64,000 nt of DNA from contig NZ_CP037452.1 in the NCBI RefSeq assembly GCF_007754425.1, positions 3,199,164-3,263,163 on the forward strand. The letters run 5' to 3'. A program made the position numbers and the translations under genes. Each line of letters opens with the position of its first letter. Position 1 is the stretch's first letter. The stretch is from Gimesia fumaroli (GTDB lineage Bacteria > Planctomycetota > Planctomycetia > Planctomycetales > Planctomycetaceae). Positions 1,804-42,820 of this stretch are shown one piece after another. Under the pieces are notes generated by a model that saw nothing but the letters and a program-made list of their open reading frames with translations, did not search any database and was not told the DNA's origin.

Positions 1804-3903
1804 TTACGCCTTTCGTGTCGCTGATGTTTTGCCGGCGATCCATTTCGCCAGCACTGTTTCCAGACCGAGCATCGCCAGCGCGACGATGATCAGCCAACGC
1901 CAGATTTTCTGTTTCTGTTCCATCTCCCGGATTAACGCTTGGCGTTTGAGGTCGGCGTGGGTGGAATTGGCGGCAGTGGTTTTACTGTGGCTGAGCAGCT
2001 TGATTCCCAGAGCTTCCAGTTTTTCGATTGCCAGTGGTGCGGTTTTACTTTCTTCGATGTCGAGATTGACCACAAACTTTTGTGCCGGCGTTGTTTTATC
2101 TTCCGAGGTAATCTGGTACAGGCCGGGTTGGACTGTCTGTTCGAAGTTCTGCTGACCAGCTGCTAATTGAATTGATGAGGCCTTGGGAACGCTCACCTTG
2201 GCTGCTTTGAGGGACTCTGGCAGTTTGACGGTTTCGCCGACGATGAACTGAGACGGTGTATCGATCATGTTGGCATTGAGGGCCAGAATGGCATTCATCA
2301 TCGGTACAAATTTGGTTGAAAGAGCGAACTGGCTTTCCTGGGGAGTCCAGCCAAACGTCGTAACGATTAGTTTTCCCTGACCGAGGGGAACGTTCACGAT
2401 TGCCGGACTCTCATGATCGAAACGGGCCAGAACTTGATGCGGTACATCTTCAGGAAGCGAGAGCCGACGATAATTCCAGAACTTTAACTTAGTGAAGTCC
2501 GAATATTCGGGAGCTTGAAACATCTGAAACAGCGGGTGCTCAAACTTGATATTTGTAAGCAGCGCGTAGCCATTGACGTCGGCCTCTGAGGTAAGATTAT
2601 TTTGCGAATGGGAAATCAAAAGTTGAAACGTGTCGTTAGTCTGTTGTTGGTTCAGGGAAAACAGGACCACCCCGCCCTGCTCCAGGTAGTTCTTGACGAG
2701 GTTGGTTTCTTCCGCGGCTAGTTCGCGGCTGACAATCATCAGATGTATCTTTGCGACTGCAAGGAGAACTTGCGGCGAGTCAGGGCCAACCGTTAGGAAT
2801 TCAATTTTGCGCTGGGGCGTTGTCGGAAATGCACGTTTGGCATAATAATCGGGGGACTCGGTGGAGCCTGCGGCAGGTGTACCGTAATGGACGATGGTGA
2901 TGTTTGCCTGTTCGCGGGGTTGAAGATAGAGGCTGTTATCAAAGTCGTGCTTGTCGCCCGTGAGTACAATTCGAGTCGCTTGTTGCTGTTCGTCCATTGC
3001 CGGCATATGAATGACACGGGACTGACCTGTGGGGACATAAATCTTCTGCGGTTGCTCGGATTCGCTGAGGGCTGTCTGATAAGCGACTTGAAATTGTTCC
3101 TGCTGAGAGTCTGCTGCATTGACAATGCGAACCGTTGCCTGCCCCTGTTCGTTCAGTGCCAGGAGTTGGAGTCCGGCATTACTGGTCTGTTTTTCTTTGA
3201 GTTGATGCAAGCGGACCTGGAGCTCTGCCGGCCAGGAAAACTCCGTGAGTGAGTCGATTTTCGCACCAGCCTGGAAATCCGTAATCAGCTCTATCGTGCT
3301 GTTTTGTAACAGAGTTCCCGATGGATCAGAAATTGCCTGTTGCTGAAGTCGTGCTGCGATTTCTGTCAATGCAAGACCCAGATTGGTTGCGTTCCAGCCC
3401 GGAGTAAGCTTCGTAAGCCGTTCGCGGTCATTCTGCTGCGTTTGTTGTGGTGTGTCCTGTTTCGTTTCCTTGAGCGGTTTAACCGTGGTAAGACGGGAAT
3501 CAAAGGTGTAGATGGCGATCTGATTCTCGTCGGCCTGCTTGATAATTTCGTCGGCGGTCTGAAGTGCCTGCTTCCAGAGAGTGCCGCGCTGCATGCTGGA
3601 ACTGGTATCGATCAATAGAATTGTCTGGTGCTTTGTGTCTGACGACGCTAGTTCGAGGTCTGTGTTTTTGAAAAAGGGGCGTGCAAAGGCTGTTACCAGA
3701 AGCATGACGGCGATAGCTCGCAGCATGAGCAGCAACCAGTGCTCAATCTTATTTTTGCGGTTGGTTTGAGGGGGCTTGTGTTCCAGAAAACGAAGCGAGC
3801 TGAAAAAAAAGACATTTTTTGGCTGGTGCCGGACCAGGTGGAGCAGGATCGGCAGGCCGACGGCAATGATTCCAACTAAATAGAGCGGGGTTAAAAAACT
3901 CAA
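1804..3903 (-). CDS. BatA-like membrane protein with von Willebrand A domain
   Basis: A 699-residue protein. The N-terminus matches the BatA (aerotolerance regulator N-terminal) domain: one membrane helix at residues 5-24, the LLHLVRH motif, and a second helix near 55-75. A vWA domain begins with a MIDAS motif DTSSS at residues 99-103. A mostly beta domain follows, and a last membrane helix (IWRWLIIVALAMLGLETVLA) lies close to the C-terminus. The start is TTG, supported by GAGGA seven bases upstream; no ATG fits. Its partners are the DUF58 and MoxR proteins upstream. In known Bat/MoxR systems the AAA ATPase acts as a chaperone for vWA proteins in envelope or stress functions. The substrate here is unknown. 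Confidence 0.88.
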   Translation of the reverse strand: MSFLTPLYLVGIIAVGLPILLHLVRHQPKNVFFFSSLRFLEHKPPQTNRKNKIEHWLLLMLRAIAVMLLVTAFARPFFKNTDLELASSDTKHQTILLIDTSSSMQRGTLWKQALQTADEIIKQADENQIAIYTFDSRLTTVKPLKETKQDTPQQTQQNDRERLTKLTPGWNATNLGLALTEIAARLQQQAISDPSGTLLQNSTIELITDFQAGAKIDSLTEFSWPAELQVRLHQLKEKQTSNAGLQLLALNEQGQATVRIVNAADSQQEQFQVAYQTALSESEQPQKIYVPTGQSRVIHMPAMDEQQQATRIVLTGDKHDFDNSLYLQPREQANITIVHYGTPAAGSTESPDYYAKRAFPTTPQRKIEFLTVGPDSPQVLLAVAKIHLMIVSRELAAEETNLVKNYLEQGGVVLFSLNQQQTNDTFQLLISHSQNNLTSEADVNGYALLTNIKFEHPLFQMFQAPEYSDFTKLKFWNYRRLSLPEDVPHQVLARFDHESPAIVNVPLGQGKLIVTTFGWTPQESQFALSTKFVPMMNAILALNANMIDTPSQFIVGETVKLPESLKAAKVSVPKASSIQLAAGQQNFEQTVQPGLYQITSEDKTTPAQKFVVNLDIEESKTAPLAIEKLEALGIKLLSHSKTTAANSTHADLKRQALIREMEQKQKIWRWLIIVALAMLGLETVLAKWIAGKTSATRKA

Positions 3904-3931
3904 CTATGTGTCCTCTGTTTCTGGACTGCTT

Positions 3932-4870
3932 TTATGCGGCGCGATCAGCTAAAAAATCGGAGAGCCCTGCTTCCAGTGGTGTATCGGTGGTCAATTTGTG
4001 ATAATGCACGCCCTGTTTGCGGCAGATGCTTTGGATTTCCTCCAGGTGCTGGTTCAACTGTTGTCGATAACTGGCTTGTGCTGCTTTGGGATTGAGTGCG
4101 ATGCGGTCGCCCGTTTCGAGATCTTCGAAAATCGCGGTTTCATTGAAGTTCAGATGAATCTCGGCGGGGTCCAGAATCTGAAACAATGCCACTTCATGCC
4201 CTTTAGCACGCAGATATCCCAAGTGTGTATTTAACTCATCCAGCGGCGACATAAGATCAGAGATTAAAACAACCAGTCCCCGTTTTTTAATGGTTTCGAC
4301 GGCGTGTTTCAGAGGCGATACAACGTTGGTGTGTGATCCCTGTGGCGGTCGTTCCAGTTCAATCAGAATTCGTCTAAGCTGACCCCGGGTGAACCGGGCG
4401 GGAACAACCGATTCGACCTGCTCATCAAAGATGATCAATCCGCTGGCATCGCGCTGAGTGGAGAGGAAATAGGCAAAGGTTGCGACCAGGGTTTTCGCGT
4501 AATCCGATTTGGAATAGCCCAGACTGTGAAATTGCATGGAAGTACTCAGGTCCAACAGCATGTGACAGCAGAGATTGGTCTCTTCTTCAAAGCGTTTGAT
4601 AAAATGCTGGTTGGAGCGGGCCGCCAATTTCCAGTCGATGTGGCGCGGATCGTCGCCGGGCGTGTATTCGCGGTATTCGGTGAATTCAACGGAGAAGCCG
4701 TGATAGGGGCTACGATGCAGGCCTTTCCAGGTCCCTTCGACGACGGATTTGGCCCTGAGTTCCAGAGACTTAATCCGCATCAGACAGGCAGGATCAATCC
4801 GTTGAGAGGCCAGTCGCTTGCTCTGTTGGGGTGTGTGTGATGTATTTTGTTTCATGCGAATCGAACTCAT
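3932..4870 (-). CDS. DUF58 domain-containing vWA-like protein
   Basis: A 312-residue soluble protein carrying the DUF58 hallmark EYTPGDDPRHIDWKLAAR at residues 69-85. A vWA-like fold with a MIDAS-type DLSTS at 107-111 follows. There is no signal peptide or membrane helix, unlike longer DUF58 proteins. Its ATG overlaps the moxR stop by four bases (ATGA), indicating translational coupling. DUF58 proteins are the standard partner of MoxR ATPases, and their biochemical role is not established. Confidence 0.92.
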   Translation of the reverse strand: MSSIRMKQNTSHTPQQSKRLASQRIDPACLMRIKSLELRAKSVVEGTWKGLHRSPYHGFSVEFTEYREYTPGDDPRHIDWKLAARSNQHFIKRFEEETNLCCHMLLDLSTSMQFHSLGYSKSDYAKTLVATFAYFLSTQRDASGLIIFDEQVESVVPARFTRGQLRRILIELERPPQGSHTNVVSPLKHAVETIKKRGLVVLISDLMSPLDELNTHLGYLRAKGHEVALFQILDPAEIHLNFNETAIFEDLETGDRIALNPKAAQASYRQQLNQHLEEIQSICRKQGVHYHKLTTDTPLEAGLSDFLADRAA

Positions 4871-38768: not shown

Positions 38769-39875
38769 ATGGTAATCTGGTTATTGAAGACGTTTTCTCC
38801 TCTGCTCGAACAACTCGAAGTTCTCTCAACCGGTGATTCGCGTGTCTTTCTGACGGCACGAATTGCACTGGCCAGTCTTTCTTCTTTTCTGATTGCCTTG
38901 CTGCTGGGTCCATTGGCGATCCGCTGGCTGGAAAAACGGTTTCGTGAGCGCGTTGACAGTGCCTCGGAAAAGTTGAATGAAATCCATGCTTCGAAAAATG
39001 CTACTCCGACGATGGGGGGGATTTTCATCATCGGCGCAATTCTAATTTCAACGTTCCTTTGGGCAGATCTTTCGAACCGTTACGTTCAATTGGGAATTTT
39101 GACAGCCGCGGGTTTTGCTTTGTTGGGGGCTTATGATGACTGGATCAAGCTCAGTACTACTCGGAACGGATTAAAACCTCGTCAGAAGCTACTGGTCCAA
39201 ATCCTCTTTTCAGGAGTCATCGGGACGGCTCTCTACTTTAATAACGCCAATTTGAATTCAGGGCTGGATTTGATTATGCCAGTCACCCGTCTAACTTTTT
39301 ATCTAGGTGTCCTGTTTATTCCCTGGACGATCGTGGTCATGACAGGAAGTTCTAACGCTGTCAATTTAACGGATGGCCTGGATGGGCTGGCCAGCGGTTG
39401 CATGGTTTTTGCCGGCTCGGCCTTTGCGGGGTTGACTTATCTGGCGGGGCATAAAGTAATGGCTGATTACTTACAGGTGCCTTATATCGCCGGGGCTGGA
39501 GAACTGAGTATTCTTCTAGGAGCGGCTGTCGGAGCGGTGCTGGGATTTTTGTGGTTCAATTGCTATCCGGCTCAGGTCTTCATGGGAGATACGGGTTCGC
39601 TGCCTTTGGGGGCATTGCTTGGTTTTGCTGCACTGGTAATTCGTCAGGAAGCATTACTGGTGATTGCCGGCGGAGTGTTCGTTGTGGAAACACTCAGTGT
39701 CATTATGCAGGTATTCTGGTTTCGGCGCACAGGAAACCGGCTAATTGCTTGTAGTCCGCTGCACAACCATTATTTATTCAAAGGCGAGCATGAAATGAAA
39801 ATTGTTGTTCGTTTCTGGATCTGTTCTGCTTTGCTGGCCATTATTGCGGTTGCCAGTTTGAAGATCGCGACCTGA
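38769..39875 (+). CDS. mraY: Phospho-N-acetylmuramoyl-pentapeptide transferase
   Basis: A 368-residue polytopic membrane enzyme that moves phospho-MurNAc-pentapeptide to undecaprenyl phosphate (lipid I). Family blocks: ATPTMGGIFII, GAYDDWIKL (the DDx motif), NLTDGLDGLASG and FMGDTGSLPLGALLG. The His motif, usually PLHHHFE, is PLHNHYLFKG, with Asn333 for the central His. All the other core Asp residues are present. An ATG start with GAGAAA upstream. Confidence 0.95.
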   Translation: MVIWLLKTFSPLLEQLEVLSTGDSRVFLTARIALASLSSFLIALLLGPLAIRWLEKRFRERVDSASEKLNEIHASKNATPTMGGIFIIGAILISTFLWADLSNRYVQLGILTAAGFALLGAYDDWIKLSTTRNGLKPRQKLLVQILFSGVIGTALYFNNANLNSGLDLIMPVTRLTFYLGVLFIPWTIVVMTGSSNAVNLTDGLDGLASGCMVFAGSAFAGLTYLAGHKVMADYLQVPYIAGAGELSILLGAAVGAVLGFLWFNCYPAQVFMGDTGSLPLGALLGFAALVIRQEALLVIAGGVFVVETLSVIMQVFWFRRTGNRLIACSPLHNHYLFKGEHEMKIVVRFWICSALLAIIAVASLKIAT

Positions 39876-40117: not shown

Positions 40118-41581
40118 ATGAAGTCGGCTTCAATTTTACCACAATCGCAACCGGACCATGACCGCAGTCTGTTCATTTCGATGGCGTGTGCGCTGTTGGG
40201 GATCGGAGTGCTAATGGTGCATAGCGCCAGCATCACCTCCTGGCCGACTGAATTTGAACAGGTTTATTTGTCAAAACATTTGACGTTTCTGGTAATTGCT
40301 GTCACCGTGGCTTCAATTGCTTCTTATATGCCAGCCCGATATTGGTTTGATCGCGCTCCCCTGCTCTTCTGGGGAACCGTAGTTTTGCTGATTCTGGTTT
40401 TAATTCCCGGGGTCGGTACGCGCGTGAATGGTGCGCAACGCTGGTTAAGGTTCGGGGCAGTTTCTCTTCAACCTTCAGAATTGGCAAAAATTGCACTCCC
40501 CCTTTTGACAGTCCGGCTGATGCTGCAGCGGCGACGGTCTTTGAACCATTGGTTCAAAGGAACGATTCCTTTACTAATTCCTCTAGCTATTGTGATCCCG
40601 CTGGTTCTAAAACAACCCGACTTGGGAACATCGTTGTTTCTGGTTGGGGGAGTTGCGATTGCCTTGTTCCTGGGAGGCTGGCCGCTCAGAAACTTTATCG
40701 TTGGGATGCTTTGTGCGATTCCCGCTGTGGGGATGTTGGTGGCATTAAGGCCTTATCAGTTAAAGCGAATCAGTGGGTTTCTTGATACCTGGACTGACTG
40801 GCAATCGGCTCCCTATCAGCTGAAGCAGTCGCTAATGGCGTTAGGAACAGGTGGCGTTTCCGGATCCGGCTTGGGGAAAGGAGCACAAAAATTAAGTTTT
40901 CTGCCTGAAGCAAATACCGATTTCGTGTTTTCGGTGGCAGGAGAAGAGCTAGGCTTGATTGGGACACTCGGAATTGTGGGACTCTGGCTGGGACTGTTTC
41001 TGGCAGGCTTCAATATTATTCGCTCACAGAATCAGAAGTCATATGCCTATGTTGTCGGGTTTACTTTGTTGATGCAGTTGGTTCTTCAGGCGATTATCAA
41101 TGTCGCCGTTGTGACAGCGATGGTGCCTCCGAAGGGGATTTCACACCCCCTCATCAGTTATGGTGGAACAAATTTGATGGTAAGCCTGCTCTCTTTGGGA
41201 ATTATCGTCAGCTTGACCCGGTCGCCGGCGGGGGCAGAATTGTTGATCGATCCGGAGCAAGGAGAAGAGGAGCCGCTATCTGATCCGCAAGCGGTTATGG
41301 AAAGAGATCTCGCAGACTCCGAGTCGGAAGCAGATGAAGAGTACGAGGATGAAGAGTGCGAGGATGAAGAGTGCGAGGATGAAGAGTGCGAGGATGAAGA
41401 GTGCGAGGATGAAGAGTGCGAGGATGAAGAGTACGAGGATGAAGAGTGCGAGGATGAAGAGTACGAGGATGAAGAGTACGAGGATGAAGAGTACGAGGAT
41501 GAAGAGTACGAGGATGAAGAGTACGAGGATGAAGAGTACGAGGATGAAGAGTACGAGGATGAAGATGAGGAGAAGAATTGA
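40118..41581 (+). CDS. ftsW: FtsW (SEDS-family peptidoglycan polymerase) with acidic repeat tail
   Basis: A 487-residue protein. The core (about 1-375) is a SEDS membrane protein: [48 protein letters not shown] and [11 protein letters not shown] are conserved. FtsW polymerises lipid II glycan strands, normally paired with a class B PBP. After the last helix there is an acidic linker and then 15 copies of DEE(Y/C)E, ending EDEEKN. That gives about 90 extra, almost uncharged-free acidic residues at the cytoplasmic C-terminus, far longer than usual. It follows mraY with a 242-bp gap where murD commonly lies. Confidence 0.95.
41333..41557 (+). repeat. 15-bp tandem repeat, 15 copies, in frame in the ftsW 3' end
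   Basis: The unit is GATGAAGAGTACGAG. Fifteen copies in a row are identical except at one base: TAC or TGC at codon 4, ordered Y,C,C,C,C,C,Y,C,Y,Y,Y,Y,Y,Y,Y. The period keeps the frame. Such near-identity implies recent growth by slippage or unequal exchange. The copy count may differ between strains. Confidence 0.97.
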
Positions 41582-41668
41582 CTGGGAATTTGAGAAGAGT
41601 TTTCCTATGCTGGACCCTTTGATTGGTGTTTAGTTGAAAAGTCACTCCACCAGTGATTCCAGGGTACA

Positions 41669-42820
41669 ATGACCGAGTCTATTCTTAGGAAGAAAACAAT
41701 CGTTTTTGCGGGAGGCGGAACAGGAGGTCATCTGCTTCCTGGAATCGCAGTCGCTGAGCAGTTGGCTTCACTCGGTGAATTTCAGACGATATTTGTAGGC
41801 TCCAACCGCATTGTCGAGCAACAAATCATTGAAAATTCAGGGTATCAACATCTCAGTTTGCCATCGTCATCAACCAGCGATTTAAAACGCGCCCCTTTTC
41901 GATTTCTTTGGCATAATGGCCGCGCATTCTTGCAGGCAATTCGTTTTTTGCGAACAAAAATACCTTCCGTTGTTATTGGTCTGGGAGGTTTTGCGAGTGT
42001 GCCTGTGATACTTGCCGCTTCCTGGTTAAAGATTCCAATTGTTTTATTAGAGCAGAATATCATTCCAGGGAGAGCAAATCAGTTTTTGTTCTCTCGCGCT
42101 TCTCTGGTCTGTATTTCTTTCTCGGAAACAGAATTCAAATGCAAGCGAAGTGGAGTAAATCACAACCAGCCTCGTGTTGTTTTGACAGGGAATCCGGTCA
42201 GACAGCAGATTGTTAATGCAGGAATACAGAAGGGGACGGCAGAAAAATCTACCGAAACTTCAATTCTGATCTTAGGCGGTAGTCAGGGAGCGACAGCTGT
42301 TAATGACGTTGTGCTCTCCCTGCTGAAACAAACCGGAGACGATCTTCCAATGCCACTACATGTGATACATCAGACGGGAGAAGCGGGATATGCGTGTGTC
42401 AATGTTACCTATGAATGGATGAGAAAACAGTGGCCTCAACTGAGGGTGACAGTACAGCCCTTTTTTGATGACTTGACAGAATGGTACACACATACGGATC
42501 TGATCATTTCTCGGGCTGGTGCTACGACGCTGGCTGAAATCGCCTGCTTGGGTATTCCGACCGTTCTGATTCCGTTTCCGAATTCAATCAGAGATCATCA
42601 GTTAATCAATGCCCGTTTTTATGCCGAACGGGGGGCAGCATTCTTGGTGGAACAAGCTCCGGACTCCAATGTGACCGCTCAGTTGCTCAGCAAAGCGGTT
42701 CTGGATTTGTTGAATGGCCCGGAGGAACGAAGCAGTATGTCACAGAAAGTCCATGAACTTGCCTACCCTCAGGCGGCTCACAGGGTTGCAGAGGAGTTAG
42801 TTGAATTAATTCGGGATTAA
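41669..42820 (+). CDS. murG: UDP-GlcNAc:lipid I GlcNAc transferase
   Basis: A 383-residue GT28 enzyme that completes lipid II on the inner membrane face. The N-terminal [20 protein letters not shown] is the MurG glycine-rich signature, and [11 protein letters not shown], with the C-terminal [22 protein letters not shown], completes the nucleotide-sugar site. ATG with AGGG upstream. 87 bp separate it from ftsW. Confidence 0.96.

Follow-up and report, generated by a model that had tools for sequence, protein, structure and literature searches.

The ftsW gene of Gimesia fumaroli ends in a tandem array of 15-bp units that encodes a long acidic tail. The question raised by this locus is whether such a tail is an accident of assembly or of repeat expansion, or whether it is maintained for something that it does for the protein. 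The window, that is, the whole stretch of DNA analysed (64,000 nucleotides), lies in a genome assembled as a single contig of 7,704,373 bases (G000).

The open reading frame carrying the array was identified as ftsW, in agreement with the sequence-only reading made before any database search. Its product scored 338.2 bits against the FtsW model TIGR02614 (cut-off 337.5, a small margin) and 253.1 against the RodA model TIGR02210 (cut-off 336.7), and matched PF01098 at 2.1e-86. The gene is surrounded by murE, murF, mraY and murG and lies in a dcw cluster; murE and murF, further upstream of mraY, were named by translation, with no family search. The predicted fold of the core was compared with solved structures using Foldseek, and the best matches were FtsW chains of FtsWIQBL complexes (8bh1_A, E 5.7e-17; 8p1u_A, E 2.0e-16). 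D268, the Asp of the TDF motif, was invariant across 44 aligned sequences and is presumably the catalytic residue.

Tandem Repeats Finder located one array with a score of at least 40 in the entire window (41333-41565, period 15, 15.5 copies, 98% matches, score 424). A listing of the units agreed with what had been described from the letters alone: fifteen full units of GATGAAGAGTRCGAG are followed by a partial unit, all in the frame of ftsW, and the full units differ from one another at a single A/G base, the variable codon being TAC (Tyr) in nine of them and TGC (Cys) in six. The resulting tail extends 109 residues past core residue 378 and has a net charge of -73. In the structure prediction pLDDT was 37-49 in ten-residue blocks of residues 381-487 and 37-43 over the array, with coil from residue 400 onward and the array free of secondary structure. 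The tail is predicted to be a long, disordered acidic segment and, judging from the FtsW fold, would lie on the cytoplasmic side of the membrane. An antisense open reading frame at 41295-41669 is regarded as a side effect of the repeat. Coordinates are collected in Table 1.

Table 1. Features at and around the ftsW gene in the window
Feature	Position	Strand	Remarks
mraY	38769..39875	+	PF00953; next gene upstream of ftsW
ftsW, whole open reading frame	40118..41581	+	487 aa
ftsW core, residues 1-378	40118..41251	+	PF01098, TIGR02614; membrane part of SEDS glycosyltransferase
Linker between core and array, 27 residues	41252..41332	+	22-29 residues in 14 genus genes, sequence diverged
Minisatellite, 15 units of GATGAAGAGTRCGAG	41333..41557	+	9 DEEYE + 6 DEECE
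End cap DEDEEKN and stop codon	41558..41581	+	
murG	41669..42820	+	PF03033, PF04101; next gene downstream of ftsW

The array was then sought in 17 Gimesia genomes, one per species. A dcw FtsW was found in 14, and all 14 carried an acidic pentad array. The ftsW core of G011 was not found; its contig C42 opens inside an array coding for (DE)8-DG and a stop codon, followed by a flank nearly as in G004 and then by murG; this (DE)n end abuts the edge of a contig in an assembly of 640 contigs and may be a product of misassembly. G006, in which the murG contig starts too late, and G016, in which neither murG nor mraY was found at E 1e-30, were unreadable. Every one of the 15 genes with a readable ftsW 3' end in these genomes therefore has an acidic repeat tail. 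Twelve arrays were complete, with 4, 5, 9, 12, 13, 14, 15, 15, 15, 22, 25 and 27 units, and the corresponding tails measured 54-167 residues with net charges of -28 to -117. Between species the end cap varies by clade (EEKN, ELEKE, DLESEEKS and EEEA, for example).

An assembly artefact had been named as one finding that would overturn the proposal, and a tail missing from sister species, together with no effect of its deletion, as another. Neither was borne out. The presence of the array was confirmed in 12 complete copies from separate assemblies, nine of them single-contig genomes, which rules out an artefact as its source; exact copy numbers rest on the assemblies and are still subject to read evidence. 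Assembly ends broke the array in two fragmented genomes, G004 and G007, as repeats lead one to expect. The acidic array is neither an artefact nor an expansion confined to one species. A tree built from 14 Gimesia ftsW cores and 6 from elsewhere placed the genus in one clade (support 100/99), so that a single origin of the tail on the stem of Gimesia is the simplest reading.

Beyond the genus, an FtsW match at E 1e-50 was obtained in 145 of 170 family genomes, 14 of these being Gimesia. The non-genus tails read came from 59 loci representing 52 distinct FtsW proteins, many of them the longest open frames and chosen deliberately. An acidic tail, defined as at least 8 D/E per 10 tail residues, was present in 0 of these 52 proteins and in 14 of 14 genus genes; the most acidic ten-residue stretch held 6 D/E outside the genus against 8 or 9 within it. 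Non-genus tails run 4-71 residues past the aligned core (median 17) and lack an acidic run, whereas those of the 12 complete Gimesia genes are longer, as given above. Gimesia FtsW otherwise resembles the dcw-type FtsW (SEDS peptidoglycan glycosyltransferase) in the family models that it matches, in the genes beside it and in its predicted fold; it is a novel form of that protein and no new type of system.

A search of 392 phylum-sample genomes with the tail peptide at E 0.01, which is not exhaustive since it misses the xDEEE tail of G004, gave matches in 24 genomes, 8 of them Gimesia; no FtsW was found at 18 loci of the 16 other genomes within flanks of about 1.5 kb, or less at contig ends. 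Within the genus, the acidic tail was absent from all six RodA proteins read. A shorter PBP_dimer protein of the FtsI type, a putative glycosyltransferase partner, occurs in genus genomes, and inspection by eye of the termini at 13 such loci revealed no charged repeat tail; a fourteenth (L119) gave another open reading frame. When the array DNA was compared with its own genome at E 0.001, one other match was found, a partial one of 66 bases at 76% identity in ftsK, and a genome-wide or mobile repeat was thereby ruled out. No published account of this FtsW tail was found in open-licence papers, searched mostly as titles and abstract openings. Other five-residue periods recur in the phylum: 15-bp repeats coding for units such as PAEDK, KDEQG, KAQDH/R, DESLE, DEVYE and DEPFP were seen in open frames of other Planctomycetota (L062, L064, L065, L066, L069, L070 and L075).

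The units themselves turn over fast. Closely related species differ both in the number and in the order of units: G002 and G003, with cores 98.3% identical, have 22 and 25 units; G013 and G001 (97.0%) have 9 and 15; and G000 and G014 (88.1%) have 15 and 27. Like units were adjacent more often than in shuffled arrays in 7 of 14 cases at p<0.05 (p 0.066 for G000), and rare variants stood in tandem, YEECE twice in G014 and DEAFE three times in G001. Such clustering, together with the differences between sisters, points to whole units being gained and lost through slippage or recombination. The unit being 15 bp, a multiple of three, these events change the length of the tail and never its frame. 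In-frame tandem units whose copy number ranges from 4 to 27 between species constitute a coding minisatellite, and the recent expansion suspected from the near-identity of the units is upheld, as recent gain and loss, by the sister pairs with cores 97.0-98.3% identical.

Codon variants among the units were sorted by position. With left-edge units of non-acidic pattern and Leu cap units dropped, Asp and Glu codons showed 14 third-position against 2 first- or second-position variants (p 1.2e-5 against a null of 1/3), whereas the codon for the fifth residue (x) showed 3 against 14, which alone is not significant (p 0.13); within the same units, the D/E codons and the x codon differed at p 8.6e-5 (Fisher). 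With edge units kept, the D/E codons gave 17 against 9 (p 8e-4), and reducing the events to three clades left a thinner D/E contrast of 7 against 2. Asp or Glu occupied 760 of 772 non-x positions, edges included. The x residue of 193 units was Cys in 83, Tyr in 49, Ser in 41, Phe in 7, Pro in 6, Leu in 6 and His in 1. Units have the form xEDEE in 13 arrays, xDEEE in G004 and (DE)n, from a 6-bp unit, in G011; all are acidic, so that acidity has been kept across differing DNA units. Negative charge is conserved here, and Cys, DNA sequence and RNA fold are not. The cause is in all likelihood selection for acidity of the tail, a conclusion held more firmly than the reading of the tail as a handle that is given below.

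These data bear on several explanations of the tail. The Cys residues had been thought to add redox or metal behaviour, and a tail that binds metal or forms disulfides through them would agree with the presence of Cys at x in 10 of 14 arrays, including every unit counted in G015 and G012. Cys never occurs at x in the other four, however (G002, G003, G010 and G004), the visible last 18 residues of the G011 tail read (DE)8-DG, and Cys, Tyr, Ser and Phe, being second-base variants of one codon, interchange. The proposal did not survive as the common function of the tail, and a redox or metal handle seems barely credible.

The array might instead act on expression, the purine-rich repeat or its acidic codons slowing translation or destabilising the ribosome and so setting the output of FtsW or of MurG. 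Only 87 bases separate the ftsW stop codon from the murG start codon, and the RNA of the G000 array folds better than its shuffles (z -5.85 over 150 nt and -3.74 over 301 nt). This fold is not shared by the five other arrays tested (z +0.54, -0.81, +1.01, -1.37 and -1.69), and an RNA or DNA element is not supported: among the six, the window array is the only one that clearly beats its shuffles. Moreover, acidity persists through synonymous change, as would be expected if selection acts on the protein. An expression device is very improbable.

A tolerated minisatellite would have no specific job: slippage would proceed at a dispensable end of the protein, perhaps in a gene that is itself non-essential, and selection would remove only strongly harmful forms such as stops, or basic or hydrophobic residues near the membrane. 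The free variation of copy number and x residue is as expected under this explanation, as is the occurrence of 15-bp repeats elsewhere in Planctomycetota. In Planctopirus limnophila, moreover, ftsW, ftsI and mreB are reported to be deletable while ftsK appears essential (PMC6952346, PMC10632474), deletion of ftsW giving viable, rounder cells (PMC6952346), and a division-essential role of FtsW is therefore not to be assumed. Yet the tail is present in all 15 readable genus genes, the cores of which share as little as about 78% of their DNA sequence; acidic positions are kept where the adjacent x codon of the same units is not; and acidity persists in G004 and G011, the DNA units of which differ. 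Mere tolerance is accordingly rather unlikely.

The reading preferred here, to which a probability of about 0.5 is given overall, is that the tail is a disordered, polyanionic electrostatic handle in the cytoplasm, kept by selection while its units turn over. The acidic tail would have been gained on FtsW at the genus stem and then retained. Selection would hold its negative charge while constraining neither the fifth residue nor the exact length tightly, and gain or loss of units would make the length adjustable without loss of FtsW; the range of 4-27 units indicates that no precise tail length is needed. Through loose, multivalent contacts the tail may bind a basic region, exposed to the cytoplasm, of some other protein of wall synthesis or division; such binding could gather or restrain FtsW in a cell that has no FtsZ. 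Granted selection, the odds that the tail serves for electrostatic binding are judged to be evenly poised.

The lack of FtsZ, which the sequence-only reading had mentioned for planctomycetes, was found to extend to this genus: PF00091 was detected in 0 of 17 Gimesia genomes, while the control search succeeded in 13 of 14. Loss of ftsZ has been described for the Planctomycetes in general (PMC10632474). A tail that binds nothing could be of use in such cells if the nucleoid and anionic lipids repelled its charge, FtsW being kept off nucleoid-covered membrane in a crude form of nucleoid occlusion. The high, uniform negative charge, the predicted disorder and the want of a conserved motif suit a repulsive brush of this kind, as does the absence of FtsZ from the genus. 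On the other hand, loss of ftsZ has been attributed to the whole group, and the 52 non-genus FtsW proteins do without a tail; the mildest Gimesia tail, besides, carries a charge of just -28. Repulsion is an improbable explanation.

If the tail is an electrostatic handle, a basic partner is to be expected among proteins of the same process. The ftsK gene of G000 (C1:2774733-2776874, L061; array match at 2776232-2776297) encodes a linker in which an acidic, Tyr-containing block is followed by a polybasic block ending in RKPIKVNPPAG, and this arrangement was found in 16 of 16 readable linkers of the genus. The number of Tyr in the acidic block varies among the genomes. The basic block has 6 K/R in 8 residues in 13 genomes and 5 in 3, and a block ending in RKPIKVNPPAG occurred in 0 of 13 FtsKs of other genera. 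In that first non-genus set the FtsK linker of G040 reaches 5 K/R in 8; at 20 further family FtsK loci (19 genomes) only G360 has 5, the others having at most 3, and the FtsW tail of G360 is also without an array. Six K/R in 8 residues occurred in 1 of 34 window ORFs of at least 200 aa, so such blocks are uncommon there. All readable Gimesia genes carry these features, the array in FtsW and the basic block in FtsK; the two were not seen in combination in the non-genus genomes read. In FtsZ-less Chlamydia, FtsK is reported to be recruited ahead of the other division proteins assayed and to be needed for divisome assembly (PMC11975371).

From sequence comparison, the polybasic block of the FtsK linker is the best candidate partner of the tail, held as a long shot. 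In the specific form in which the FtsW tail would grip this block, FtsK would place FtsW directly and the repeat number would tune the strength of the tie, the proposal is somewhat more doubtful still; if true, a septal wall synthase and a DNA translocase would be tied by charge in a genus without FtsZ. Against FtsK, its acidic block could mask or neutralise its own basic block, and the lead depends on one shared branch, which proves no link. The moderately basic FtsK linkers of G360 and G040, outside the genus, weigh against it too. The linkers of two g19 FtsKs (G034, L221; G484, L220) contain long Glu/Asp/Tyr runs, yet the FtsWs of these genomes have no acidic array.

MurG is a weaker lead than FtsK, and a lead only. 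More acidic tails go with a higher MurG charge (Spearman 0.77, p 0.003, n=12), the highest correlation of the seven proteins tried; that of MraY was 0.70 (p 0.011, 12 species). After tree correction, made with a simplified version of the ftsW core tree, r was 0.41 for MurG (p 0.09) and 0.17 for MraY.

Known systems offer partial parallels. Mycobacterial FtsW interacts with FtsZ in vitro and in vivo, and a change of FtsZ D374-76 is reported to abolish the interaction (PMC2897852). There too, as is proposed for Gimesia, FtsW makes contact with a division protein of the cytoplasm, and acidic residues are needed for it. The polarity is reversed, however: the acidic residues belong to FtsZ, the very protein that Gimesia lacks, and mycobacterial FtsW as a precedent for an acidic FtsZ-binding tail was dropped for this reason (PMC2897852). 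A disordered acidic repeat tail is shared with eukaryotic D/E-repeat DNA-binding proteins such as HMGB1, in which the C-terminal 30 residues form a D/E repeat that is described as making loose electrostatic contacts with basic regions (PMC10250230). Unlike HMGB1, Gimesia FtsW is a bacterial membrane wall synthase, does not bind DNA, and has a five-residue unit with a variable uncharged residue. The C-terminal domain of RNA polymerase II (YSPTSPS) is also a tandem-repeat tail encoded by an unstable minisatellite and kept for function, but its sequence is unrelated and that tail is known to be essential (PMC7341143).

For the question of how wall synthesis is placed without FtsZ in budding Planctomycetota, a genus-specific, apparently selected appendage of FtsW provides a concrete handle that can be deleted. 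Its fast-changing repeat number supplies natural length variants for comparison, and the locus is a clear case of a minisatellite in which the DNA unit changes and the encoded charge stays.

Two minor observations concern murG. Contig C429 of G011 (2584-4750, L211) carries a second, distant murG (33%) adjoining an ftsW/rodA-like gene (29%), a pair that is either paralogous or on a contaminating contig. Within the genus, MurG is diverging much faster than the neighbouring proteins: identity to the window MurG is 64% in G004 and G007, 63% in G011 and 52% in G006, while in G004 and G007 respectively MraY is 89% and 92% identical and the FtsW core 91% and 90%.
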